Of a DNA stretch of 24,721 nucleotides, positions 3,189-22,671 are shown piece by piece. This stretch comes from a virus, in IMG/VR virus record IMGVR_UViG_3300020172_006076, positions 1-24,721 of that record, one strand, 5' to 3'. Under the pieces are notes generated by a model. The model was not told the origin of the DNA. It saw only the letters and a program-made list of their open reading frames with translations, and ran no database searches. The position numbers were made by a program, and so were the translations under genes. The first letter of the stretch is position 1. Each line of letters begins with the position of its first letter.

Positions 3189-5619
3189 AGCCCTCACCTA
3201 CGGCGGACCCCGTTCTCAGATCCAAGTCCAGTTACCCAATGGCAAAATTTTGCCGGCGATTGCCGCTACCCCAATCAATTCCCCCAGAGTAGCCGTCGGC
3301 TTCGACCAGCAAGGCCAAGCCTGGGTCTGGGGTGAAGCCAGCAAAAATGACCTTCAATCCACCTCATTTCGCAAAAATCGCCCCTCTCCCAATCAAGAGC
3401 CAGTCTATCCCTTTAAAGTGATCGCCCAATGGGGGAATCTTGGCTATATCGCCCAAGCCGGCGATCGATCCTCTCAGCAAGTAGAAGCCCAAAAAATCCT
3501 TGCTTTTGGTAATCGTGGCAGACAGAAAAATGACTTTATTCTCCTGACTGAAATAGAAACCGACCAATATCGGCTTAAAAACAGAGAAGGAGAAAAAAAC
3601 CTAAACTTTAGCTCCCCTGAGATTCTAGAAACATTCAAAACCAGTGGCAGATTTTACGGCGATGACTATTATGGGATTTTATTAAGGGGCGAGCAGGGTT
3701 GGAACAATTCTGATATTATAACCATCACCACAGGCGACAGCGCAAATGGAACCACGAGGCAATATACTCCCGATGGTGGATACGAATATTTACAAACTAG
3801 ATACAGAATCGGAACTACAATTGAATTCAGTCCACCCACGGACACACTTTACTCTCCGCCCGGAGACTCGGGGTACGGCACAGGTATTACCTACACCTCA
3901 ATAAGCTTGATTCCTTTGCCAGACCCCTTCGAAGTCTCCGGATTTTTGTCCTCTCGTGTTGTTTCTCCAGAAGAGAGAGCCATTTGGCATGACGAAATAA
4001 ATACCTGTGTAGCTGGCTTAGCAAATATAGAACCGTCACCCCCCATAATTAAGGGGGGAACTTCTACAAAAAATTTTGAAGAAAGTATTACTACTAATAC
4101 TCAATCAAGAAAAAGGCTTGTATCTGGCTTTCTTGATTCTATTTCTAAAGTTACCGCCACTGATACGCTTAATCAGTCAAATACTTGGCTTGTAGATGGG
4201 CAGTTCACTGTGACCCCAACTACCACGCCTATAGCCTTTAACGGTACAGGTGGTGGATACTGTAGCTCAACTTTTTATCCAAGTTTCCCTGTGAATGGCG
4301 CCTATTATGAATTTACGAATCCCTACTATGAGGTATTCGACCAAACATCTAGCACTGAGACAGATACAGATAATGATATTTCTATTGGTTCTTATAACAA
4401 TTCTATTCCAATTAATATCAATAGCTTCAATGCAATTGATTACACAATTAATGCTGTATCTAATAGCAGCTATACTTCGATCAACACTTTTTCTCTAAAT
4501 GAAAATGAAGCCGGCGGCAGGTTTAACACACGGAAAATAGAGGAAACCGACACTAGAAATGCAGTCAGCGAATACACTAACGAAATAACTGGAATTTATA
4601 AAGGCGCGGACGAGCTTTGCCTATACTCCAGAATCGATAGCAAGATTGTCAGCACTTCCGCTGTTAGGACTACGCGACGCGAGATGGTGGAGACAGTCAC
4701 GCAAGTCAGAACAAGAAGCACAACAACAAATGGTCAAACAGAAGATAACACAATTATACCGCGAAGGATTTATTTAGCAAATCGAGAAAACAATCTAGTA
4801 TTAAATGAAGATTATTTTTATATAAGAGTAAAAGACATAAAAAACAAAATAAATTTATCACAACTTACGACCCCATTTAGTTTTAACATTGCACCTGCTG
4901 ACAGGCAAGAAACAATAGGGCGATTCCCGCTCTATTTTGACTACCCAATCAAATATAGTGTTAACAGTGTAGTTGGAGAAACGGGGTTAGACCACAATTG
5001 GTCTAACCCGAATACTATTACTATTTCTAATAGTGCCACACCCCTGAATTCCTACAGCGATGAATATTATCTTGACCCAAATCTTAGTCATCCAATCGAA
5101 TTAATTGTTTTTGAAGGTGATGCTATTTATAAACTATCAGGTACAGCAACCATTAATTATCAAAATACAACTAAAACTTTTACAGCAAATAATGCTTTTT
5201 TTTCAGGGGATTACGGACAGTTTAGCTATTCCGAAGCATCCTTAGATACCGTATCTATTACCATCGAAAACGCAGGGCTAATCAAATACCACGCATTAAA
5301 AGGGGTAGATACTGATACTTTTGGGCATTTATACAGTTCGGCTAATTGTCTGGGATTATTTCAAAAACTTCTAGGAACAAATTTTATTACATCAGGGATA
5401 ACAAGAACCACCCTCTACAAAAGAAAAAACAATCAAATAATCATGGCTTTTTCCGATAATTCCAACCTAATAAAAAAAGGAGAAAGATATGCCGACCTCT
5501 ATCGGCTACAAGGAAATAAATTTATCAGAGAAGGCGAAAAAAAAGGAGCCTACTATCCAGTCCTCAATCCGAATAGTAGTAGTGATCCTACCCTCGGCCT
5601 TATCGGGTATTACGATTAA
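3172..5619 (+). CDS. large putative tail protein, 815 aa
   Basis: I chose ATG 3172; the frame is open back to a TTG at 3073, but that would overlap the upstream gene by over 100 nt and has no ribosome site. The N-terminal 160 residues are beta-rich (SQIQVQLPNGKILPAIAATP, RVAVGFDQQGQAWVWGE). From about residue 290 the protein becomes rich in Ser, Thr, Asn and Tyr (TSSTETDTDNDISIGSYNNS, NTQSRKRLVSGFL), typical of extracellular beta-structured phage appendages. Family unknown. It likely works with the preceding protein in the tail tip. The DNA from about 3600 to 5500 is AT-richer than its surroundings and contains no TCGGCT motif, and an inverted repeat is inserted in frame at 4039-4058, all signs of a variable or acquired segment. 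Its stop overlaps the stop of the converging gene (TTAA, 5616-5619). Confidence 0.7.
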   Translation: MLIPAKALTYGGPRSQIQVQLPNGKILPAIAATPINSPRVAVGFDQQGQAWVWGEASKNDLQSTSFRKNRPSPNQEPVYPFKVIAQWGNLGYIAQAGDRSSQQVEAQKILAFGNRGRQKNDFILLTEIETDQYRLKNREGEKNLNFSSPEILETFKTSGRFYGDDYYGILLRGEQGWNNSDIITITTGDSANGTTRQYTPDGGYEYLQTRYRIGTTIEFSPPTDTLYSPPGDSGYGTGITYTSISLIPLPDPFEVSGFLSSRVVSPEERAIWHDEINTCVAGLANIEPSPPIIKGGTSTKNFEESITTNTQSRKRLVSGFLDSISKVTATDTLNQSNTWLVDGQFTVTPTTTPIAFNGTGGGYCSSTFYPSFPVNGAYYEFTNPYYEVFDQTSSTETDTDNDISIGSYNNSIPININSFNAIDYTINAVSNSSYTSINTFSLNENEAGGRFNTRKIEETDTRNAVSEYTNEITGIYKGADELCLYSRIDSKIVSTSAVRTTRREMVETVTQVRTRSTTTNGQTEDNTIIPRRIYLANRENNLVLNEDYFYIRVKDIKNKINLSQLTTPFSFNIAPADRQETIGRFPLYFDYPIKYSVNSVVGETGLDHNWSNPNTITISNSATPLNSYSDEYYLDPNLSHPIELIVFEGDAIYKLSGTATINYQNTTKTFTANNAFFSGDYGQFSYSEASLDTVSITIENAGLIKYHALKGVDTDTFGHLYSSANCLGLFQKLLGTNFITSGITRTTLYKRKNNQIIMAFSDNSNLIKKGERYADLYRLQGNKFIREGEKKGAYYPVLNPNSSSDPTLGLIGYYD
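3241..3254. repeat. copy of the GGCAAAATTTTGCC palindrome inside a gene
   Basis: An exact copy of the 14-bp palindromic core found at four intergenic sites lies about 70 nt inside the 815-aa gene, encoding part of NGKILP. The flanks do not extend the symmetry. It could be a regulator site or chance; a near match (one arm altered) also occurs at about 20852-20865 inside the ParB-domain gene. Confidence 0.5.
4039..4058. repeat. C6/G6 inverted repeat inside a coding region
   Basis: Six Cs (4039-4044), ATAATTAA, then six Gs (4053-4058) form a strong hairpin inside the 815-aa gene, read in frame as PPIIKGG. This type of palindrome (C-run, TTAATTAA, G-run) is known as a dispersed small repeat in many cyanobacterial genomes, so it looks like an in-frame insertion that the protein tolerated. 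Confidence 0.55.
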
Positions 5620-7807: not shown

Positions 7808-8719
7808 TCAAGGTCGCCACACCGGTTTAGGTGCTGTCTCAAGACCCGCAGCCCTCTCAAAAGGCGACACCCCGTAATCAGGCTTTAACCCCTGCTTTTC
7901 AAGCTCGGCTAACCCCTTCTCCCGGTGATCCCTAATCCAATCTTCCTTAACCAATCCCAACTCAAAAAACTTCCTTTTCACCGGCACAATAAAACACCGA
8001 TCCTGATAGTGAATCGGAGGGCGCGTACTGCCAAGCTCGTACATATTCCCATTCCTTGCAGAGCAGTACCGGCACACTCGGCTATCAATCGTCGCCATCC
8101 ACTGTACCCACTCCGCCCCATTCTCCCGGAAGCAATTCTCCGCCGCCGCATTAGAAGCACTCAAAGAAGCTGTCCTCGCGATAATATCCGCCCGTCGTTT
8201 TGTAATCTCCAATTGCCCTCGTAGCACCGACGACAATCTACTCACCCCCCACCCCTGAATCAAGCCCTGCTCCACCGCAGCAGAAGCCTTAGAAGCAAAT
8301 TCATCCCCGTAGCGTGCCAGATAGCGGGTCTGTTCCTCCGCCGCGTAGCGAAGCGCATCCAGAGGGATTGTCGCAGTCGATCGCACGAAATCCTCACCCG
8401 AAATCTCCAGCAATCGCCGACCCATATCTATGCCAGTCCCATCGGCTATCCGCAAAAGCTCCTCAAAATCCCGTTTAAAATCGCGACCAGCCGTCGGGTT
8501 GAGCAACTCCTTAAGTTGGTCCAAAAGCAGTAATTTACGCTGGTAAGCCGCCAGACCCCCCATCTCCTGATACTCCGGATACTTTCGCCTTAGCTCCTCC
8601 TCAAGCTGAGTAAAAGCCACCGCCAACGCTCGATTAATGCGATCGGCTATGCGCGTCTCAGTCCTATCCAAAACACTATTAAGTTTTTCTATCAGTCGCA
8701 AATGTTCCGGTGAAACCAT
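7808..8719 (-). CDS. MuF-like minor head protein, 303 aa
   Basis: I place the start at ATG 8719 (AGGT about 10 nt upstream). The frame extends to a GTG at 8797, but those extra 26 codons are formed by a terminator-like hairpin and lack a ribosome site. The N-terminal two thirds is a long charged helical region (VSPEHLRLIEKLNSVLDRTETRIADR...). The C-terminal part has the Mu gpF signature: TRTASLSASNAAAENCF, then MATIDSRVCRYCSARNG and RPPIHYQDRCF, with its Cys/His pattern. MuF proteins are minor capsid components next to the portal, present in a few copies and sometimes ejected with DNA. Gene order portal-MuF is conserved in Mu- and SPP1-like phages and supports the call. Confidence 0.85.
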   Translation of the reverse strand: MVSPEHLRLIEKLNSVLDRTETRIADRINRALAVAFTQLEEELRRKYPEYQEMGGLAAYQRKLLLLDQLKELLNPTAGRDFKRDFEELLRIADGTGIDMGRRLLEISGEDFVRSTATIPLDALRYAAEEQTRYLARYGDEFASKASAAVEQGLIQGWGVSRLSSVLRGQLEITKRRADIIARTASLSASNAAAENCFRENGAEWVQWMATIDSRVCRYCSARNGNMYELGSTRPPIHYQDRCFIVPVKRKFFELGLVKEDWIRDHREKGLAELEKQGLKPDYGVSPFERAAGLETAPKPVWRP

Positions 8720-8734
8720 AGTATTTTTACCTAA

Positions 8735-8768
8735 GAAAAAACCTCGGTAATTCTCGCTACTACCGAGG
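8735..8768 (-). terminator. intrinsic terminator between portal and MuF genes
   Basis: On the minus strand CCTCGGTA and TACCGAGG (8-bp stem, 11-nt loop) are directly followed by TTTTTT, a good intrinsic terminator. It lies 52 bp past the portal stop and just before the preferred MuF start, so it would cut MuF transcription relative to portal. Confidence 0.65.
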
Positions 8769-8794
8769 GCGTACCCATTTGGAGATTTATCATG

Positions 8795-8811
8795 CACGAG
8801 CAGAACTCGTG
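8795..8811 (-). other. small hairpin after the portal stop
   Basis: Arms CACGAG and CTCGTG (6-bp stem, 5-nt loop) lie 10 bp beyond the portal stop and 26 bp before the terminator hairpin. No T-run follows. It could protect the portal mRNA end or compete with the terminator fold. Confidence 0.35.
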
Positions 8812-8820
8812 TTACCCATT

Positions 8821-10290
8821 CTACATCTGTTTCTGATCTGGTGGAACATCTTCTCTCATAGAAAGTTTCGTTAAATTTTCCACATCAGTCTCCCTTTCCC
8901 TTTGAATCAGTTCCATCTCAGCATCAGGATCATTCACCCCGATCAGCATCATCGCGCTTGTCCGGCTTCGCAGCCCCGCCTGCAATTCCGCAATCACCTG
9001 CCTGCGCTCATCGGCTAAAGGCTTCCCAGTCGAAAGATTTAGCTCGCAAATAATCTTATGCGAACTCTTGGGCAACAAAAGCCGCTTAATCAAGCCAAAA
9101 ACCGAAGCCAGACCCGCCTCGACAATCTCACTAATCCCCTCTAGCCTCGTCGTAAAATCGCCCTTAATCGTCTCTCGACTACGCCCACTTAGTGACCCAT
9201 CCCCCGCCGTCAGCAAGTGAGCTAATCCCATAGACAACCAAAAAACTTCATAGGAGATCGCTAAGTTGCCGCTGAAGGCCGATACATCAATCGGCTGTTC
9301 AGTGTGAATCTGAGGACTCGTATAACCCGTCGGCGCTTGGGGATCCCCAATAGGCAATCCCGAAAGATAAACTATTTGATTCGGTCCAAAGGGCAGGGGT
9401 TTTTCACTAGGCACGAATTTCAACCCATTCGGTTGCGTCACATCTACAACCCACTCCCCCGGCTGTTGGGTGTTCAACAATATTCGACTTAAAAACCCCC
9501 CCGCGTCCACGTTGATGTCTTTCAAAGTCAGAGCCTTATTAATCGAATTCTGAGTTTGCTTGGCTGAATCCGTAATCAAAGCCTTCCCACGAAACTCAAT
9601 AATCGGTAACATCCCCCCATAATCCTCCTCCTTTGTTCCGCTAGGGTCAGTAATCCTAGTTTTGCCATTATCCAGTAGCTCATAAGTCTCCACACCCGAC
9701 TTAGCTTGGTAGCTTGCATAGTAGAGGAAATCATCGTCATCTCTTTTCGTATTTATTGTCCCCAGGGTCGGACAATGAACCACATACTTTTTGTGAACCT
9801 CAGCAACATTAGCCAATCGCATCGGCTGATAAAGTCGCAAGAAACCCCGACCAGTGACTAGAAGCTGTGCCACAGCCTCACTGATCACCTTCCCCCGGCC
9901 CGACTCAATCCCTAGCCTTCTCTGATAATCCCACCAATCCTGTAGAAGCTTTTCCTCTTTATTGATCGCCCGCTTTTCTTCCTCAGAAAGCTCCTCTACT
10001 TGCTTATCGGCTGACGAAAGATAAAAATTAAAAGGCAACCCCACCAAAGCCGCCGTATAGTGATCGATCGCCTCCCCGATCACATTATGGCTCTGAAAAA
10101 CCCTCTGTAAATTTTTCATCACTTCCTTATATTTTGGGTGATCCGTCGGAGGGGTCGGTCCGCTCCAAAAGCGAAAAGTATCGCCAAGGTAGTACCGCCA
10201 ATTGTCCAGAGCCTCTTCATAGGATAGTTCGCCGTGTAGATACTCGGCTACATCTGCCTTAGTCGGGACAAAACTATTGTTGCTATACAT
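8821..10290 (-). CDS. phage portal protein, 489 aa
   Basis: ATG 10290 has AAGGAAAGG just upstream. Features typical of portals are seen: an N-terminal helical part (YEEALDNWRYYLGDTFRFWSG... then NVIGEAIDHYTAALVG), a beta-rich wing (TYELLDNGKTRITDPSG), a long helix carrying GRSRETIKGDFTTRLEGISEIVEAGLASVFGLIKRLLL, and the C-terminal ERRQVIAELQAGLRSRTSAMMLIGVNDPDAEMELIQRERE, matching the usual 'aGl.S...al..lg..D.e.El' ending. The portal is the dodecameric vertex channel for DNA packaging and exit. Size fits the 450-520 aa norm. Whether it is closer to Mu gp29 (DUF935) or SPP1 gp6 portals I cannot settle by eye. It is followed by MuF, as expected, but separated from the large terminase by two unrelated genes. 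Confidence 0.85.
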   Translation of the reverse strand: MYSNNSFVPTKADVAEYLHGELSYEEALDNWRYYLGDTFRFWSGPTPPTDHPKYKEVMKNLQRVFQSHNVIGEAIDHYTAALVGLPFNFYLSSADKQVEELSEEEKRAINKEEKLLQDWWDYQRRLGIESGRGKVISEAVAQLLVTGRGFLRLYQPMRLANVAEVHKKYVVHCPTLGTINTKRDDDDFLYYASYQAKSGVETYELLDNGKTRITDPSGTKEEDYGGMLPIIEFRGKALITDSAKQTQNSINKALTLKDINVDAGGFLSRILLNTQQPGEWVVDVTQPNGLKFVPSEKPLPFGPNQIVYLSGLPIGDPQAPTGYTSPQIHTEQPIDVSAFSGNLAISYEVFWLSMGLAHLLTAGDGSLSGRSRETIKGDFTTRLEGISEIVEAGLASVFGLIKRLLLPKSSHKIICELNLSTGKPLADERRQVIAELQAGLRSRTSAMMLIGVNDPDAEMELIQRERETDVENLTKLSMREDVPPDQKQM

Positions 10291-10353: not shown

Positions 10354-11559
10354 TCACCCCTCAACAATCCAATATTCAAAATCCGTCCCCCCGGGCACAA
10401 AACCAAAGCGCGGCAGCCCATCCTCTAAAATCGGCTCTACAGTCCCATCCTTAGACTCCCTACCCAAATAGAGAAAATTACTCGCCTTAATCGGATTAGC
10501 CCGGGGAAACTTTTTGGACTTCCAGCATTCCGGCAACAAATCGCGATAACGGCGCACTTTCGGGATAATAATCCCAGTTTGCTCTCGTTGCGCCCCAAAT
10601 TCGACGTAATGATACAACTGACTACTATCCACCTCCGACGGCAATTTATCTCCAAAAAAGCCCAACCAATCGCGAATCCCGAACGACTCGATCGCATTAT
10701 CGTGACAGTGATTAACCCAATCTTGCAGATTAGGAAAAGTCCGCTCGTAAGTCTCTTTGAAAGGCCTCCAAAAATCCGAGCGCCGTCCCTGGCCAATCTG
10801 AAAAATCTCCAACCCCACAGCTTCGGCTAACCCCTCACAGAGACTGCCAAAATCTTGCCACCTTCCCGGTGGATTGCGCTTCATCGAAAGCTTAATCAAA
10901 TCTTCCCCCAAAGCCTTTCTTTCCCTCGGACCCAAGTTATCCCGTTGCTTATAGGAAAGATGAAGAAACTCAAGCCAGACCCCCTCCGCTCCCACATCGC
11001 GTAAGCGATTAAAGAAACTCTCAGGCTCCCGAATCCAATCCGGATTTAAAGGATTCACCCCCACCACCACCCGATGGCCGTGTCGCTTCAAAGTCCTAAT
11101 CAAATCAAATCGGCTTTCTATACTCGGAGCCGTCGGTTCAATCACCTCCCGCGTCTCCTCCTGATCATGGGTAATGCTCACATACCACACCGAGGTCGGC
11201 AAAAACCTTAAAGTCTCCTCAATCCCCAATCCCCCCCTAGTCTGAATTGCGATCGGAATCCCCTCTTTAGTCAGCAACTCCATAATTGGCAACATATCTC
11301 GGTAATTAGATCGGCTGAAAGGATCAACCTTATTAGAGATAAGCACCGGATACCCCAGCTTGAGTAACTGCCCCTCTAAACTCAAGCGCTCCCCCCGGTT
11401 CTCAATCATTCGCATCGTACCAGCCACATCCAACCGGCGCTCGCGGTTATTTAAATTCGCGAAACAATAACCGCAATTATGAGAACAGAAATTCCCCCCC
11501 ATCTCCAAAGGAATCGCCGAAACAAAGAACTCGCCATAATAAGGCTTAATCGTATCCAT
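10354..11559 (-). CDS. radical SAM enzyme, 401 aa
   Basis: Cys25, Cys29 and Cys32 in FCSHNCGYCFA form the CX3CX2C motif that binds a 4Fe-4S cluster and S-adenosylmethionine. Downstream lie other barrel elements seen in the family: GYPVLISNKVDPFSRSNY, IPIAIQTRGG, VWYVSITHDQEETREVIEPTAP and HGHRVVVGVNPLNPDW. The general layout recalls the SplB-like and Rv2578c-like radical SAM proteins, some of which repair or modify nucleic acids; I see no SPASM-type Cys cluster at the C-terminus. The substrate is unknown. The gene starts at ATG 11559, with AGGGA almost touching the ATG, and diverges from the J-domain gene across a 127-bp gap with a perfect palindrome. Its place between terminase and portal is unusual and suggests an accessory (moron-like) gene, perhaps for DNA or virion-protein modification. 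Confidence 0.85.
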   Translation of the reverse strand: MDTIKPYYGEFFVSAIPLEMGGNFCSHNCGYCFANLNNRERRLDVAGTMRMIENRGERLSLEGQLLKLGYPVLISNKVDPFSRSNYRDMLPIMELLTKEGIPIAIQTRGGLGIEETLRFLPTSVWYVSITHDQEETREVIEPTAPSIESRFDLIRTLKRHGHRVVVGVNPLNPDWIREPESFFNRLRDVGAEGVWLEFLHLSYKQRDNLGPRERKALGEDLIKLSMKRNPPGRWQDFGSLCEGLAEAVGLEIFQIGQGRRSDFWRPFKETYERTFPNLQDWVNHCHDNAIESFGIRDWLGFFGDKLPSEVDSSQLYHYVEFGAQREQTGIIIPKVRRYRDLLPECWKSKKFPRANPIKASNFLYLGRESKDGTVEPILEDGLPRFGFVPGGTDFEYWIVEG

Positions 11560-11612: not shown

Positions 11613-11634
11613 CAGTGGCAAAATTTTGCCACTG
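11613..11634. promoter_or_regulatory. perfect 22-bp palindrome in a divergent promoter region
   Basis: Eleven-base arms CAGTGGCAAAA and TTTTGCCACTG, without spacer, lie 53 bp from the radical SAM start and 52 bp from the J-domain start. On the minus strand it is followed by ACTTTT (TGACT boundary), as at 15321 (TGACT) and 18386 (TGACT), so these three share orientation. The AT-rich centre and lack of T-run argue for an operator, not a terminator. Confidence 0.65.
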
Positions 11635-11686: not shown

Positions 11687-13003
11687 ATGGCTTCTAGAGG
11701 ATGGTCTAAGATCAAATCGGGTAAAGGGAAAGGGAAATTAGTCAATTCTGATGGTAAAACGGCCTTTCAGGCAAGGCAGGAAAAATATTACGCCGCTAAA
11801 GCTTCCGGAGGTGGGGGCGGTGGCGGGGGTGGGGAACAAACCACCAAAAAACGAATGAGTTTAGAAGAGCGGCGACAACAGCCAGAATTCGCAGTCGGCT
11901 CCGCTAAAGGAGCCGCAGCCAAAGAACTCAGACAAGAGATTAAACGACTTGACCAAGAAAAAAGAAAAGAATATGAACCAATAGACGCAAAACTTAAAGC
12001 AAGGCAACAAAAAGAGGGGATCAGTGATGGCAAGCTAGTCGGAAGCAACGCCTTCAAACAATGGGATAAAGCCGCTGGCAAAATCGAAGAAAAGTATCTT
12101 CCCTTGAAAGATGAGGCTAACGCTCGCTACCAGAAGAAAAAAGAAGCCCTCGACAATCTTGGCTCACTTCTTAACAAGAAATCATTGGCTAAAACCATAA
12201 GCGAGGCTACCAAAAAAGTCCAAGAGCAAATCCCCGGATTCAAGCTTGATGCTCAAAAATCTGCCCAGAAATCCGCTCAAAATGCCACCGAAAAAGCCGC
12301 TCGGAAAACCGCTCAAAAAGATGAGCGTAAAGCCGCTAGAGAAGAAAAAATGGCGCAAAAAACCAAAGCCGCCGAGGAAAAAATGGCTCAAAAAGCCACA
12401 GCCACCGAGCAGAAGCCACCCCGCGCCAAAAAAGACTCGGCTTCTTCCCAAGCAGCTAAAGATAAAGTCATGGGTCAAGGCGGGTTAAGCGTAGGGCAAC
12501 TCAGAAAATCAATTGCCGACTATTTCAATGAAAAAGATGCTAAAGACTTGCCCAGCAATGATATGTACCGAATGGGCAGCCGCATGATGCAACAAGAATG
12601 GGAGGATAAAAATCCTGGTAAAAAATGGGATTTAAATAATCCAGATGCCCTGGAAACTATGTATCGAAAATACGTCGATATTCTACCGAAAGAACGGAAT
12701 AGCACCGGACCCACGTCCATTAATGGAATCGATGTTACAAAATACTTTCGTCCCTATCAGGTATTCGGCTTAGACCCAAAAACGGCAACAAAAGAAGACA
12801 AAAAACGAGCCTACCGAAAACTAGCGCAAAAATACCATCCGGATAACCAAGAAACAGGAGACAGAGATATGTTTGAACGGATTGAAAATATGTACAAATC
12901 TATCACAGTTACTATCGGCAAAGCTCCCAAAGAAAAATCTAAAGGCAAGGGCAAGAAAAATCAATCTCGTACTGGTCCCCTCCTTCTTCCCCCCGCCCGA
13001 TAA
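11687..13003 (+). CDS. J-domain (DnaJ-like) protein with Lys/Ala-rich middle, 438 aa
   Basis: I start at ATG 11687, which has a strong GGGGGG-AG ribosome site; an upstream in-frame ATG at 11615 lies on the palindrome and has none. Order of parts: basic N-terminus, a nine-Gly tract (residues 41-49, from a G-rich run at about 11810-11836), a charged coiled-coil region, an Ala/Lys/Gln-rich histone-H1-like stretch (about 205-270, repeats such as AQKSAQKSAQN and EEKMAQKTKAAEEKMAQKA), and a C-terminal J domain (about 357-410) with FGLDPKTATKEDKKRAYRKLAQKY followed by the HPD triad at 384-386. J domains stimulate Hsp70 (DnaK) ATPase. The protein could recruit host DnaK to head assembly or DNA. It is on the opposite strand from all its neighbours and ends 1 bp from the converging large-terminase stop. 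Confidence 0.85.
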   Translation: MASRGWSKIKSGKGKGKLVNSDGKTAFQARQEKYYAAKASGGGGGGGGGEQTTKKRMSLEERRQQPEFAVGSAKGAAAKELRQEIKRLDQEKRKEYEPIDAKLKARQQKEGISDGKLVGSNAFKQWDKAAGKIEEKYLPLKDEANARYQKKKEALDNLGSLLNKKSLAKTISEATKKVQEQIPGFKLDAQKSAQKSAQNATEKAARKTAQKDERKAAREEKMAQKTKAAEEKMAQKATATEQKPPRAKKDSASSQAAKDKVMGQGGLSVGQLRKSIADYFNEKDAKDLPSNDMYRMGSRMMQQEWEDKNPGKKWDLNNPDALETMYRKYVDILPKERNSTGPTSINGIDVTKYFRPYQVFGLDPKTATKEDKKRAYRKLAQKYHPDNQETGDRDMFERIENMYKSITVTIGKAPKEKSKGKGKKNQSRTGPLLLPPAR

Positions 13004-13004
13004 C

Positions 13005-14420
13005 CTACCAACCATCAAACCCCCGGCTAGGCTGCGCAGGCAGACTAGCCTCCCAATTCAGCGAGGCAAACCACGCCAAACAGCAAGCGATCGCACCGTC
13101 CCCGTGTCGTTGCTTCCCGTCGGCTCCCTTAGTCCGTTTTTCTGGAATCCTCGGAATCCCCCTCTCTACCACCACCAACCGGTGATCATCCAACAGATCA
13201 GAATTTTTCGGCAAAATAATCTTCTTATCCTCTAAAGCCGCCTTATACTTCGGAAAAGCCTCTAAATACCAGTTAGCCGTCGGCATTACCTCTAAAATCC
13301 GATGCTTCCCATAACGTTGCATAGCAACCTCCGCCAAATACTGACCATTCCCCCGCGCATCATGCGCTCCCCCCACCAATCGCGGCAACTTATCACACGC
13401 CGCGAACAAAATTTGTCTTTGCTGTTCAAAAGGGATATTTCTCATCTCGATCGCAAAAGCCGTTCTTCTTACCAAGTCCGGACACTCTTGCAGCACCAAA
13501 AGATAAGACAAGTCCCCCGACCGACCGAAATCTAATCCGTAGCTTGACTTAAAGCGAGGATTTAGAGAAGCTAAAGCAGGGTTTAGCTGAGTTTGAACCC
13601 AATCCCTAGTAATAGCCTCCCGTTGAGGATTGGTCGCAAAATCGGCTTTAGCGGAAAAATTCAAAACCGGAATATCCCCTTGCATATTCTGTTCGACCAG
13701 AACCCTGGGTAAATAACAGCCACCGCTCTGATTAGGCACACAAAATAATTCTTCATCTGCGCCCTCCCCATACTGATCGATTAAATCCTGCCTCCAAGCC
13801 TCCTCACCCTTCGTTGAGTATTTCTTCTTAGTCTTCAGGCAAATTCTCTTATAAAGCCCATCGGCTAAAGCCTCATCCAGGGTTATTCTGTGCAAAGAAT
13901 AGGGCTTTTTCCCTTGCCGACAATCCTCTACCAACTCATGGAAATAATTCTCTACCCCATTATGAGTGCTGATGATCCTGACCTGTCCCCCCCACATTAG
14001 AAAAGCCATAGCGGCTTTGATAAGACCAGGTAAATCAGGGTGAAACGCCGCCTCATCAATAATCGCCCGTCCTTGCCTACCCCGCAGATTAGTTGGTCGG
14101 CTACTCAAAGCCACCACCCGAAAACCAGAAGCATAACTAACCTGAAAAGCCCGGATACTTTCTAAATAAACCTCCTCCATTGCATTTGCTACCAACTGAA
14201 AATGAACAGACCAGTCAATCACCTCGTGGATAAACTCCCTAGCGATATCCTCGCTATACCCGATGTAATAAACATCCAGACCCTTTTGACTTCCTGCGGT
14301 CACGGCCGCATCGGCTGCTTCCGCCCAAGTCAGTCCCACCCGCCTCGACTTCTCACACACCTTTACCGAAGCCTTGTCATCTAGCCACTTTTTTTGATAA
14401 GGCAGTAAAACACTATTCAA
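13005..14420 (-). CDS. large terminase subunit, Mu gp28-like, 471 aa
   Basis: I choose the TTG at 14420: GGGAGG lies 6 nt upstream and the start overlaps the nuclease stop by 8 nt. The frame reaches 14450 but with no ribosome site there. The ATPase half has a Walker-A-like loop CEKSRRVGLTW (22-32), the segment SSRPTNLRGRQG and Walker B GRAIIDEAAF (117-126), then coupling motif RIISTHNG. The C-terminal RNase H-like nuclease has YGLDFGRSGD (D297), GGAHDARGNG (D354) and RHGDGAIA (D441) as likely metal ligands. Together this is the packaging motor and headful or cutting nuclease. The 'LLPYQkkWl.D....vceKSRrvGlTW' opening is typical of the Mu gp28 group and pairs correctly with the gp27-like gene upstream. 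Confidence 0.92.
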   Translation of the reverse strand: MNSVLLPYQKKWLDDKASVKVCEKSRRVGLTWAEAADAAVTAGSQKGLDVYYIGYSEDIAREFIHEVIDWSVHFQLVANAMEEVYLESIRAFQVSYASGFRVVALSSRPTNLRGRQGRAIIDEAAFHPDLPGLIKAAMAFLMWGGQVRIISTHNGVENYFHELVEDCRQGKKPYSLHRITLDEALADGLYKRICLKTKKKYSTKGEEAWRQDLIDQYGEGADEELFCVPNQSGGCYLPRVLVEQNMQGDIPVLNFSAKADFATNPQREAITRDWVQTQLNPALASLNPRFKSSYGLDFGRSGDLSYLLVLQECPDLVRRTAFAIEMRNIPFEQQRQILFAACDKLPRLVGGAHDARGNGQYLAEVAMQRYGKHRILEVMPTANWYLEAFPKYKAALEDKKIILPKNSDLLDDHRLVVVERGIPRIPEKRTKGADGKQRHGDGAIACCLAWFASLNWEASLPAQPSRGFDGW

Positions 14421-14745
14421 TCCCCACCTCCCGGCGAATTTTCGCCGCAATCAAATCAATCCAAAAATCCGTAATCATTTCACTCGATAGCTGAAAGACT
14501 GACCACCCTACTAGGATAGCTAAATTCAACTTCTCAAAATCCTTAATCTGTCCCGCTCCCCCGCTATGTCTTCCCCCCGTCCAAACCCCTCCCTGAATCT
14601 CGATCGCAACTCGGCTAGGCACATGACAAAAATCAAACCGAAACTTTCTATCTGGAATACCCCGATACTCTCGCACCAAAGGAATAGAGTATCGGCGCTC
14701 CCAATGCCGAAGGAAGCGCTCCTCTAGAGCGCTAACACTCCTCAC
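14413..14745 (-). CDS. PD-(D/E)XK-type nuclease, 110 aa
   Basis: GTG start at 14745 overlaps the small-terminase stop by 4 nt (GTGA), with a GGGGGTG run upstream. The core reads RKFRFDF (D38), then VAIEIQGG (E49-X-Q51), GRHSGGAGQIKDFEK (D69, K72) and GWSVFQLS. This is the compact D...ExQ/K arrangement of PD-(D/E)XK endonucleases (Vsr/DUF559-like and phage resolvase-like groups). Length near 110 aa is normal for these stand-alone phage nucleases. It sits between small and large terminase, so it may act in resolving branched DNA before packaging or in genome cutting. It could instead be a freestanding mobile nuclease; no homing features are seen. Confidence 0.75.
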   Translation of the reverse strand: MRSVSALEERFLRHWERRYSIPLVREYRGIPDRKFRFDFCHVPSRVAIEIQGGVWTGGRHSGGAGQIKDFEKLNLAILVGWSVFQLSSEMITDFWIDLIAAKIRREVGIE

Positions 14746-15281
14746 TCACCCACCCCCAGAATCTTCTCGCGAATCAATTGAGCCGCCGACTCCGAAAGCC
14801 CCGCTGATTGCACGTCAGCCGCCACCTCATCCCCAACCCGACGCAACTGCGCCCGCATAGCAGAAGAGTGCTTCTTAGTCGCATTAGCAGATTTATTTAA
14901 ATTAGCGATCGCATTCACCAAACGATCAATTGATATTGGGTCGCTACCTTCCGGATCAAAATCCTGAATCAAGGCAAAAATCTTCTGTTGGGCCAGCCTT
15001 GCTAATGCGTCCCCAAGTTCGTTGGCATCATCATCACAGACCTCAGTAATCGCCCTAGCCTGCTCTGTTGCAAGCTTAATAGCTTGCAGTTGCCCCTTAA
15101 ATTCCTTCCCGTAGCGATGGATCGACGACTTACCTACCTCAAAGCCTTTCTCCTGTAGCCACGCCTCTAGACCCCGATAATCACTGAAAGCCTGCTCGAT
15201 CAGCAAGCGATCAAGTTCCAATCTAATTTCCGGAGGCAATCCATCAATTTTTGAAATTTTCGGCATCTTAGCACTGACCAA
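14742..15281 (-). CDS. small terminase, Mu gp27-like (DUF3486), 179 aa
   Basis: The protein matches the DUF3486 pattern: KISKIDGLPPEIRLELDRLL, then FSDYRGLEAWLQEKGFEVGKSSIHRYGKEF, an N-terminal winged or helix-turn-helix DNA-reader, followed by long helices (ATEQARAITEV, QKIFALIQDF) for oligomerisation. In Mu this family is gp27 next to terminase gp28, and the same order is kept here with a nuclease between. Start choice: TTG 15281 has GAGG 7 nt upstream; ATG 15266 (MPKISK) is the alternative and has no clear ribosome site. A perfect 20-bp palindrome lies 39 bp upstream, so this gene probably opens a packaging transcription unit. Confidence 0.85.
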   Translation of the reverse strand: MVSAKMPKISKIDGLPPEIRLELDRLLIEQAFSDYRGLEAWLQEKGFEVGKSSIHRYGKEFKGQLQAIKLATEQARAITEVCDDDANELGDALARLAQQKIFALIQDFDPEGSDPISIDRLVNAIANLNKSANATKKHSSAMRAQLRRVGDEVAADVQSAGLSESAAQLIREKILGVGE

Positions 15282-15320: not shown

Positions 15321-15340
15321 AGTGGCAAAATTTTGCCACT
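15321..15340. promoter_or_regulatory. perfect 20-bp palindrome upstream of terminase genes
   Basis: AGTGGCAAAA and TTTTGCCACT meet without spacer in the 65-bp gap between the tail-fibre group and the small terminase, 39 bp before its TTG. On the minus strand GACTAATCGA follows. It shares 18 bp with the copy at 11613-11634. An operator for the packaging unit is the likeliest reading. Confidence 0.65.
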
Positions 15341-18414: not shown

Positions 18415-19257
18415 TCACGAATTATCCCTACTTTTCCAGTCCTCAATCCTATCCAAAATCATCTGGTGATAATCGGCTGATTTTTCAATGCAGATATACT
18501 CCCGACCCAATTCCAGGCAAGCCACGGCAGTCGTCCCCGATCCCGCAAATGGGTCTAAAACTACTCCACCAGGAGGAGTCGTTAGCTCAATTAGTCGCTT
18601 TACCACTTCTATCGGCTTTTGCGTGGGATGTTGAAACTTGACTTTATTATTTCTATTGGTGTGAGTAGGAGGCAAAAAAGACCATACATTTGTAAAATTT
18701 ACAGTATCAGGCGATCTAGCCCCGATTGGCTTTATACGCGTATCAAACCTACCTTGATAAGTTTCTTGGGACTTACCGTTATGCACCCAGGGGTTGATAT
18801 TACCTTTTAATCTGCCTTTTAAATCTTGTAAATGCCGTTGAACAGATTCAATGCTAACCACATCAAACAATACACCTGGAACCTTAACATCTTCATATTT
18901 TCCCTTTGTATTGAAATAATTGACTCCTTTATGCTTATAGACGAAAATGCTTTCATGGCTTCTTTGCAAGCCATTGCATTGGGTTGCTTGCCTTTTAATC
19001 CAAGCGACATGATCCTTGTACTGCATTACCTGGGAAGCTTCATTAATCCAATTAACCATCGTTGGCATTTGTCCAAAAAAGCAGTAAAAGCCATTAGTAA
19101 CTCGTTTTACTTCTCTGGTAAACAATGGAATATCAATTACAGAATCCCATTTAGCCAATCCAATGCCATAGGGCGGATCCGTGATAATAGCATCTACAGA
19201 TTTATCGGCTAAAGTAGGCATCACCTCTAGGCAATTACCGTGAATAATTTGATTCAC
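18415..19257 (-). CDS. beta-class DNA methyltransferase (DPPY), 280 aa
   Basis: GTG start 19257 overlaps the 59-aa gene stop by 4 nt, with GAGGTGAG upstream. The catalytic motif IV DPPYGIG is at 27-33, and the S-adenosylmethionine-binding motif I, VLDPFAGSGTT, at 233-243 near the C-terminus, preceded by HPTQKPIEVVKRLI (motif X). This IV-before-I order is the beta class; DPPY fits N6-adenine or, less often, N4-cytosine methylation. The target domain lies between (GLFDVVSIESVQRH, NFTNVWSFLPP). No restriction partner is present, so this is an orphan enzyme, perhaps protecting phage DNA or marking its own genes for regulation. It is co-transcribed with the Mor-like activator. Confidence 0.9.
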   Translation of the reverse strand: MNQIIHGNCLEVMPTLADKSVDAIITDPPYGIGLAKWDSVIDIPLFTREVKRVTNGFYCFFGQMPTMVNWINEASQVMQYKDHVAWIKRQATQCNGLQRSHESIFVYKHKGVNYFNTKGKYEDVKVPGVLFDVVSIESVQRHLQDLKGRLKGNINPWVHNGKSQETYQGRFDTRIKPIGARSPDTVNFTNVWSFLPPTHTNRNNKVKFQHPTQKPIEVVKRLIELTTPPGGVVLDPFAGSGTTAVACLELGREYICIEKSADYHQMILDRIEDWKSRDNS

Positions 19258-20505: not shown

Positions 20506-22671
20506 TTAGAATTCACCTTTAGCTACTTTCCAGAGATTCAAAACCGAAAGCTCGATCACCTTCGGAGAAAGCCCCTTAAGTGCCTGAATAAGCTCGAACT
20601 CATCCTCGACCGCCATTAGATCAATCGGCTTTTCATACTGAGAAAGTACCTCAGCAAAAGCCTTGATGACATCCATAAAATAAACGCTATCCACCCCGGC
20701 ATAAGGCAGATTCAATCGGGAATAAATCTCGCTGAGATGCTTCAGTGCTTCCTTATCCCCGTGCGGGGCAAATCCCGCCACGAGATTAAGCACCCCAGAA
20801 GGATGAGCATTTTTACTCGCATATTCCTCAATCGCTTTAATCGCATTCTTCTGGCAAAATTTTGGCAGCTTTAACAGCCACTCAAAAGGAACCCGCGCCC
20901 TTTGAGAAGGGGTTAAGCATATGTCGGCTACACATCGGAAAAGAGAAGCAATCTGCCCAGTGAATATCTCCCCTTCCCACTGGAAGCTAACCCAATCCCC
21001 CATAGCAAAGCCACAATTGGCCGCTAAATGAATTTGGTGATCCTTCCAAGATTGCCCCTGGGTATCCCCCCAGTTAATCTTCCAATCGCCATAGTCATCA
21101 CGCCCCGTAAGAGTCCCCTGCTTTAAACAATCCTTATCGGCTTTTGCCGAAACCACATCGCCCACCTTAAACCCAGTGAGAGCCTGTTTAGGGGGATTAA
21201 AAGGATCAAAATCAAAAAGCTTAAGCTCCTCTACCCCCTCCTGAAGATCACCGCGAGGAGCCGGGTCAGAACCCATCCCCATCCACTGAACCTTAATCGG
21301 CTCCGTATCAATCACCACACCAATGGAGCCACGGGAAGTTACCCAGTTACGCACCTCAAAAGCATCTTGATCCTGATCAGCCCACGGCTCAAGATGATCC
21401 TCAAGCAAAGAATCCGTTTTATCCGAATCCAAATAGCGGAAATGGTAAAGCCACGCCTGGTGAAGTTCAGCCCATTGCAATCTCTCAACAACTGCCCCTC
21501 GCTCACGATAAACAAGCCAAACTTTCTCCCCCACAGCAAAAGCCGGAGGGGTAGGCTCACTCGTAATGTTCGGAGCTTCCTGCGTAATGTTCGGAGCTTT
21601 TCCCACTGGCACAGCCGGCGCAGGAGTTGGGCTAGGCTTCGGCGACTTAGGCGGAGTATTTTTGCCCAATCCCACCAACTCCAAATCAGTCCACTTCACA
21701 AAAAACGATTCCCCTGTTTCCTCACAAACGATCGCCTGCGAATCCCCATCCTGTAGCTTGATTGTCCCCGGCAAACACAAAACACCCGCAGTCAAAACAC
21801 CCTTAGACCCACTAACATCCTCGCCATTGTAACGATAGCGAGCCTCCGAGCCTTCTATCTCCCGAAGCTTCAAAATCGCCGAATGAACGCTATTATTTAA
21901 AGCCCCCCGAAGAAATTCCGCTTCCACTCGCCGTCCTAGCTCCGTAAATAAATCAATCGCCTGAACCACCTTAGTAGCCTTCCTGAGATTCTCCCGGCTA
22001 CCCATTCCAGTAGCCTCGGCCAAAAGATCATCTGGTCTGACCGCCTGAGAAAATTTCAGCGAAAGCTCATTAATTCCCCATTTTTGACACAGCTTCCAGT
22101 CCTGCTCTAAGTCCCCCGATAACTGGGACACCCGTGCATCCTTTCGGCTCTCTAAAGAAAAGCGCACCTCCTCAAGAATCTTCCGTTGCCGAGCCACTTG
22201 CTGAGTTTTCAGCCAATCCTTGGCAGAGGCTAATACCTCCGCCTCCCGGACCCGTTCCTCAGTCGTCTTGATCCGGCCAGCATTTTCCAGAATTAACCGG
22301 ATCAACTCAGCCTCTTGATCCGCAAATTCCACAATCTCGATCGGAACCGACTTTAAACCTAAATTACGAGCGCAGGCCAATCGGCTGTTACCGCTCACCG
22401 CCTGCCGCTTCCGATTGATTACAATCGGTTTCACCCACCCAGATTCTCTGATTTGCTCCTGTAAGACACTAATATCCGTCCGTGGATAAATCAGTGAATT
22501 GTAAGGGTGCGGCAAAATCAAAGTCGGGTCAAGTTCTCTCGGTTCCGCAATATCCCAATCATCCTCAATCTTAGTGGACTCCACATAAAATAATCCCTTG
22601 ATAATGCCGTTTTTTTCAACGATCTTATCCGTTCCCAAAAATTCCAGTAATTCCTTTTCTGAATAGCGCAT
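20506..22671 (-). CDS. ParB-domain protein fused to SH3/KOW-like modules, 721 aa
   Basis: ATG 22671 follows AGGAGGG. Residues 54-116 form a ParB/Srx-type N-terminal domain: HPYNSLIYPRTDISVLQEQIRESGWVKPIVINRKRQAVSGNSRLACARNLGLKSVPIEIVEF, with SGNSRLACA (93-101) at the nucleotide-binding site. Charged helices follow to about 280. Then come repeated small beta modules: FFVKWTDLELV near 330, VGEKVWLVYRERGAVVERLQW near 375, FKVGDVVSAKADKDCLKQGTLTG near 500 and FAMGDWVSFQWEGEIFTGQI near 555, each in the 'vGd.V......g.v' SH3/KOW style. A Pro-rich linker (PPKSPKPSPTPAPAVPVG) and a doubled APNIT repeat join them. The C-terminus is helical. ParB-type domains hydrolyse CTP or act as nucleases in phages; I cannot say which here. 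A DNA-tracking role is plausible. Confidence 0.75.
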   Translation of the reverse strand: MRYSEKELLEFLGTDKIVEKNGIIKGLFYVESTKIEDDWDIAEPRELDPTLILPHPYNSLIYPRTDISVLQEQIRESGWVKPIVINRKRQAVSGNSRLACARNLGLKSVPIEIVEFADQEAELIRLILENAGRIKTTEERVREAEVLASAKDWLKTQQVARQRKILEEVRFSLESRKDARVSQLSGDLEQDWKLCQKWGINELSLKFSQAVRPDDLLAEATGMGSRENLRKATKVVQAIDLFTELGRRVEAEFLRGALNNSVHSAILKLREIEGSEARYRYNGEDVSGSKGVLTAGVLCLPGTIKLQDGDSQAIVCEETGESFFVKWTDLELVGLGKNTPPKSPKPSPTPAPAVPVGKAPNITQEAPNITSEPTPPAFAVGEKVWLVYRERGAVVERLQWAELHQAWLYHFRYLDSDKTDSLLEDHLEPWADQDQDAFEVRNWVTSRGSIGVVIDTEPIKVQWMGMGSDPAPRGDLQEGVEELKLFDFDPFNPPKQALTGFKVGDVVSAKADKDCLKQGTLTGRDDYGDWKINWGDTQGQSWKDHQIHLAANCGFAMGDWVSFQWEGEIFTGQIASLFRCVADICLTPSQRARVPFEWLLKLPKFCQKNAIKAIEEYASKNAHPSGVLNLVAGFAPHGDKEALKHLSEIYSRLNLPYAGVDSVYFMDVIKAFAEVLSQYEKPIDLMAVEDEFELIQALKGLSPKVIELSVLNLWKVAKGEF
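21562..21599 (-). repeat. 21-bp-period direct repeat in ParB-domain gene
   Basis: The 17-mer CGTAATGTTCGGAGCTT occurs at 21562-21578 and 21583-21599. On the minus strand the two units encode EAPNITxEAPNIT in the Pro-rich linker, so the protein linker can change length by slippage in whole 7-residue steps. Confidence 0.75.

Follow-up and report, generated by a model that had tools for sequence, protein, structure and literature searches.

Radical SAM enzymes can functionalize unreactive carbon atoms, and a gene for such an enzyme among the packaging and head genes of a phage raises the question of what it acts on. The window, by which we mean the whole 24,721-nucleotide stretch analyzed here (positions 1-24,721 of record IMGVR_UViG_3300020172_006076), holds one such gene at 10354..11559 on the minus strand. 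It is an open frame from ATG that encodes a protein of 401 aa, and it lies between a Mu gp28-like terminase gene and a portal gene. The protein matches the Radical_SAM profile (PF04055) at 36.8 bits, above the gathering threshold of 29.5. The motif CSHNCGYC (residues 25-32; 11464..11487, minus strand) is the CX3CX2C signature of the [4Fe-4S] cluster, and its three cysteines and Tyr31 are invariant in 32 of 32 members of the family alignment. Frame, motif, profile match and flanking genes thus agree with the first-pass annotation, which had described a CX3CX2C radical SAM enzyme, inserted between terminase and portal, whose substrate it left unnamed; the gene is real. The comparison with the counterpart in the related locus L003 gave dN/dS of 0.12 by NG86, with dN of 0.22 and a dS of 1.84 that is near saturation. 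The low dN alongside high dS indicates that the protein is under constraint.

The surrounding genes place the enzyme in a recognizable phage setting. Along the direction of transcription, the order is a Mu gp27-like small terminase subunit (14742..15281, minus strand; PF11985, E 3e-39), a phrog_503 protein, the large terminase subunit (13005..14450, minus strand; phrog_2, E 5e-32; Mu gp28-like by position and neighbors), a J-domain gene on the opposite strand, the radical SAM gene, an SPP1-type portal protein (8821..10290, minus strand; SPP1_portal, E 1.9e-6) and a MuF-type head morphogenesis protein (7808..8797, minus strand; PF04233, E 1.5e-10). The small phrog_503 gene (14413-14745) overlaps both terminase genes at its ends. 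The same genes are found in the three closest IMG/VR relatives (L002-L004), whose radical SAM proteins are 73% identical to that of the window, and the order of large terminase, divergent gene, radical SAM gene and portal was read in L003. All three relatives carry this region and a Mu-type transposase (PF09299), and hence we regard the window phage as Mu-like. Its host is likely a cyanobacterium, on indirect evidence. Two recorded hosts among the more distant relatives are the Nodosilinea and Oculatella genomes. The cyanobacterial HIP1 octamer is only slightly enriched in the window (2 seen vs 0.25 expected), compared with counts of 16-26 in the Nodosilinea and Oculatella relatives and one other.

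A 22-bp perfect palindrome, CAGTGGCAAAATTTTGCCACTG (11613..11634), lies upstream of both the radical SAM gene and the divergent gene. It is kept in the three relatives, with a single base difference in L002. The first-pass annotation had taken it as a control region common to the two genes. The palindrome and the J domain are both real, yet the element is dispersed: TGGCAAAATTTTGCCA and its near-copies occur at 3239, 7783, 11615, 15322 and 20851 of the window (6 matches vs 0.02 expected). The 18-bp core is repeated exactly at 15322, where the small terminase gene follows it; the near-copies are those at 3239, 7783 (upstream of an HU-like gene) and 20851. Three copies stand 40-65 nt upstream of minus-strand genes, namely those for the small terminase, the radical SAM protein and the HU-like protein. 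A private operator of the two divergent genes is therefore rejected. On the minus strand the palindrome reads as a hairpin of terminator type; it may be an operator or a terminator, and is not necessarily a control region.

The divergent gene (11687..13003, plus strand; its ATG placed by homology within a frame open from a GTG at 11615) ends in a J domain (PF00226, E 3.7e-9). Looked for in other phages, the gene pair proposed in the annotation does not hold: no J domain was found in the records of the three closest relatives, whose version of the protein retains just the N-terminal ~44 residues and in L003 is 156 aa long. Since these relatives lack the domain, the J-domain gene is unlikely to be a necessary partner of the enzyme; we reject the partnership, and the gene probably stands outside the functional unit. 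The ~44-residue module (MASRGWSK...GKTAFQARQEK) recurs with varied C-terminal parts, at 11687-11815 of the window, at L039:6748-6867 and 8208-8315, and at L055:6744-6863. The two copies in L039 flank the radical SAM gene.

The family to which the enzyme belongs was assembled by a motif scan of viral contigs and by profile scans. It has at least 32 distinct full-length members, mainly from environmental viruses. The others are 23-73% identical to the window protein, most of them 23-43%. Eighteen columns of the 32-member alignment are invariant, including the three cluster cysteines, D79, Q106-T107, Y126, R150 and N169-P170. No other cysteine is invariant; the next best, C285, is present in 21 of 32 members and lies outside the core. 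Maximum-likelihood analysis groups all 32 members in one clade (98/99 branch support), apart from other phage radical SAM families, from Rv2578c-type proteins and from YuA gp12. This tree leaves out a probably mis-framed Methylobacterium row, which had a very long branch in an earlier tree, and a long-branch row from a faecal phage. One of the other phage families (~470 aa, CPYNCxYCFANAFRASLYTAFFDN; L005, L007, L017, L018, L020, L025, L035 and L038) is paired with a shorter second radical SAM gene (~350 aa), with neither ParB nor terminase neighbors.

The annotation had allowed that clear orthology to a housekeeping enzyme would undo its proposal, and the profile search of radical SAM subfamilies gave no such orthologue. 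No curated NCBIfam family claims the window protein, whose scores never exceed roughly a tenth of the cut-off (Rv2578c, 44.9 of 430 bits; PA0069, 24.3 of 360; mobile-pair-B, 25.3 of 410). Among 386 cyanobacterial genomes sampled across the phylum, a match was seen only in the known Nodosilinea genome and none in the other 385. These low scores and this near-absence lead us to reject a host-derived housekeeping gene. A tblastn search of 50,697 named phage records with the window protein found no full-length match, the best partial one being ~24% identical over half the length. Three other family members, searched against named phages in the same manner, gave no or partial matches. Members outside cyanobacteria were found in a betaproteobacterial MAG and in Termititenax. 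In the collections searched, the family is thus phage-borne, found in metagenomic viruses and in a few bacterial genomes, in the latter presumably as prophage.

The partner that the annotation overlooked, having named the J-domain gene instead, is a ParB-like gene within a terminase cassette; its placement of the enzyme between terminase and portal stands. With models of the ParB-like, terminase, portal and MuF families we charted the surroundings of 34 representative loci, 33 of which have readable upstream DNA. A ParB-like gene is directly upstream of the radical SAM gene, on the same strand and within 260 nt, in 21 of the 33. In five more (L041, L042, L043, L044 and L063) one or two small genes intervene and ParB is still less than 1.2 kb away, which brings the loci with ParB inside that distance to 26. 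The two coding regions overlap by 4 nt in seven to eight loci, an arrangement that suggests coupled translation. A large terminase gene is downstream of the radical SAM gene in ~24 loci, several of these calls being made on weak profile scores (23-57 bits). The conserved order reads ParB, radical SAM, small terminase (not always present) and large terminase. Other phage radical SAM families, subjected to the same scan as an internal negative control, did not have it. The downstream terminases are of unlike types (phrog_979, phrog_2/3717 and GpA), and the link accordingly goes with ParB and with the position, not with any single terminase protein. Proteins with an ADP-ribosyltransferase domain adjoin or lie near the radical SAM gene in some loci, just downstream in L043 (L009) and at L045:3267-5090.

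The order is not uniform. A group of four loci (L010, L070, L073 and L074) is arranged differently, the terminase being encoded on the other strand. The window clade is rearranged as well: the terminase is upstream of the radical SAM gene, and ParB is found 4-9 kb upstream within a protein of 670-720 aa. In the window this is a 721-aa protein ~9 kb away (20506..22671, minus strand; phrog_620, E 4e-10), with a ParB_N match (E 1.4e-5) that falls just under the curated cut-off. It clusters with the short ParB-like proteins whose genes adjoin the radical SAM gene in other phages. An N6/N4 DNA methyltransferase (18415..19257, minus strand; PF01555, E 1.8e-38) is encoded between the terminase and this ParB-like gene. 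The variant arrangements, together with the occurrence of the ParB-terminase order in phages with no radical SAM gene, are what one would expect of a cargo (moron) gene without a functional tie to ParB or packaging, kept by shared regional ancestry. We consider such a gene highly improbable, as the pairing persists among mostly 23-43% identical members, beside unlike terminases, and often as overlapping genes.

What a ParB-like gene may signify in this position was sought among named phages. A search with the ParB-like protein of L034 returned 394 records, of which 12 were chosen by hand and read by hand. Terminase genes are visible in the displayed stretch of seven of the 12 (Javan254, R19R, RcKai, SPF_0923, Funu2, IPP52 and Rasputia). 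ParB is fused to an N6/N4 methyltransferase, by Pfam, in four (Vibrio 1.213.O, Javan105, Funu2 and NatCom_991); the fusion in Funu2 is directly before the terminase genes, and NatCom_991 also has a protein with a PAPS-reductase domain. One more, Javan254, carries a methylase annotation, and a gene for a TET-associated glycosyltransferase overlaps the ParB gene in HHTV-2 and in SPF_0923, in the latter before the terminase. Streptococcus phage IPP52 (L099) encodes a ParB-DUF4417 fusion (3492-4586) upstream of its terminase gene, and the position makes DUF4417 a candidate DNA-modifying domain. The remaining four of the 12 (R19R, RcKai, PMBT4 and Rasputia) have no recognizable enzyme beside ParB, which in R19R, RcKai and Rasputia nonetheless precedes the terminases. 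A 2025 paper independently describes ParBc proteins, both in the vicinity of CmoX, a cytosine carboxymethyltransferase of phages, and fused to DNA methyltransferases, and states that the precise function of such ParB-like genes beside phage DNA-modifying enzymes is unknown (PMC12783734). Our literature search found no report of a ParB-radical SAM pair.

We infer DNA as the substrate from this company of genes: ParB neighbors elsewhere include DNA-modifying enzymes. This is our main argument, one of guilt by association in a hand-picked sample. Of the three substrates that the first-pass annotation had left side by side (virion DNA, tRNA or a capsid protein), the gene neighborhoods favor virion DNA. 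The reading that we prefer, and to which we give an even chance, is that phage DNA is modified, ahead of packaging or in its course, by a radical SAM enzyme under the guidance of ParB. As in the rest of its superfamily, the enzyme would cleave SAM to a 5'-deoxyadenosyl radical, and the ParB-like DNA-binding partner would act as the targeting factor. The modification, most likely of a base, would fall on DNA of the phage itself just ahead of its packaging by the terminase or as this proceeds, and the modified virion DNA would be shielded from host nucleases. The window lineage would then hold a rearranged version of the ParB-radical SAM-terminase cassette. Set against DNA modification are the ~9 kb between ParB and the enzyme in the window and the different order of the four-locus group. 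Moreover, ParB-terminase pairs exist without a recognizable enzyme, and the ParB-radical SAM link could therefore be a positional habit. Nor is the radical SAM gene accompanied by another conserved modification enzyme.

The predicted structure was consulted for the nature of the substrate. The AlphaFold2 model (mean pLDDT 93.4, pTM 0.92) places a partial TIM-barrel core in residues 1-256, which match the PFL-activating enzyme (3c8f, Z 17.8) and spore photoproduct lyase (4rh0, Z 16.7); the folds of NifB, viperin and RlmN score about 15 against the core. Most of the leading PDB hits stop near residue 254-277, and a sequence search of solved structures found no useful relative. The invariant cysteines being only three, a single cluster is inferred. 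The C-terminal region beyond the core (residues 257-401; 10357..10791, minus strand) is variable and predicted to be mostly helical, followed by four strands. Modeled alone from residue 252 (pLDDT 85), it had no confident fold match; only four chains reached a Z of at least 2 (2.1-3.1), and the DNA-binding proteins among them are too weak as matches to use. The modeled fold places the core but cannot tell a nucleic-acid substrate from a protein one.

Each of three rival readings can point to a match of this model. The PFL-activating enzyme, as the top structural match, brings to mind a modifier of protein, in the manner of radical SAM maturases or glycyl-radical activases, with the ParB-like partner, the terminase, the portal or a capsid protein as target. 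The location among head and packaging genes would suit this, and modification of ParB itself could account for how often its gene overlaps that of the enzyme. We judge it unlikely: the adjoining terminases are of unlike types, there is no conserved cysteine beyond the cluster motif to suggest a SPASM-type auxiliary cluster, and a Gly_radical domain was found in 0 of 21 carrier records, many of them fragments. The resemblance of the core to spore photoproduct lyase (237 residues, 12% identity) points to reversal of lesions in phage DNA before packaging; PHROGs labels a homologous family 'DNA repair photolyase', and cyanobacterial hosts are light-exposed. That enzyme, however, depends on a fourth cysteine beyond the cluster motif, for which the 32 members have no invariant equivalent, and members also occur in the betaproteobacterial MAG and Termititenax, all of which makes repair quite unlikely. 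The near-leading scores of viperin and RlmN would fit action on a free nucleotide or on RNA, tRNA included, in host takeover or anti-defense. The gene sits in a packaging cassette, paired with a DNA-binding-type ParB rather than with RNA or nucleotide genes, and no PADLOC model matched the protein; we hold this reading to be very unlikely.

Markers of known modification pathways were also sought in the carrier records. The dUMP hydroxymethylase (PF00303) was absent from 20 of 20 records including the window, with YuA positive as control, and QueC of 7-deazaguanine DNA modification from 21 of 21, as was a Gly_radical partner. The M6/YuA (5-hmdU) pathway, glycyl-radical activation and the QueC pathway are weakened by these absences. 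As many records are fragments and a host could supply the glycyl-radical partner or the QueC function, the three readings are lowered only.

The DNA modifications known from phages serve to mark viral genomes and to protect them, and they yield both new chemistry and enzymes used as tools. A DNA-directed radical SAM family, if true, would add reactions beyond those of methyltransferases and glycosyltransferases, and a ParB-radical SAM system would help to assign a role to the ParB-like genes found beside phage DNA-modifying enzymes. We suggest, tentatively and with less than even confidence, a new class of phage DNA modification, in which a ParB-guided radical SAM enzyme installs an undescribed radical-made mark at the packaging stage, in phages of cyanobacteria and of other bacteria and in none of the named phage records searched.

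Among known systems, the nearest distinct phage enzyme is YuA gp12 (phrog_9252), a phage-borne radical SAM protein with a homologous core (residues 18-220; hhalign 98%, E 1e-13). It falls outside the clade, and instead of a ParB-terminase cassette its gene has those for a putative kinase and a dUMP hydroxymethyltransferase nearby. A thymidylate-synthase-like gene, lacking in the 20 carrier records, is present in YuA, whose genus, Yuavirus, is credited with thymidine hypermodification (PMC11946847). The Rv2578c, PA0069 and mobile-pair-B families share weak core similarity, far below the cut-offs, with the Rv2578c type outside the clade. Spore photoproduct lyase is alike in its predicted core fold, and differs in the fourth cysteine and in the C-terminal region. 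Closest in arrangement are the ParB-methyltransferase fusions and the pairs of ParB with a TET-associated glycosyltransferase, in which a single enzyme is joined to ParB or comes next after it, commonly ahead of terminase genes. In the family described here that enzyme is instead a radical SAM protein: the gene cassette looks to be of a type already known from phages, and the enzyme family that fills it is previously unclassified.
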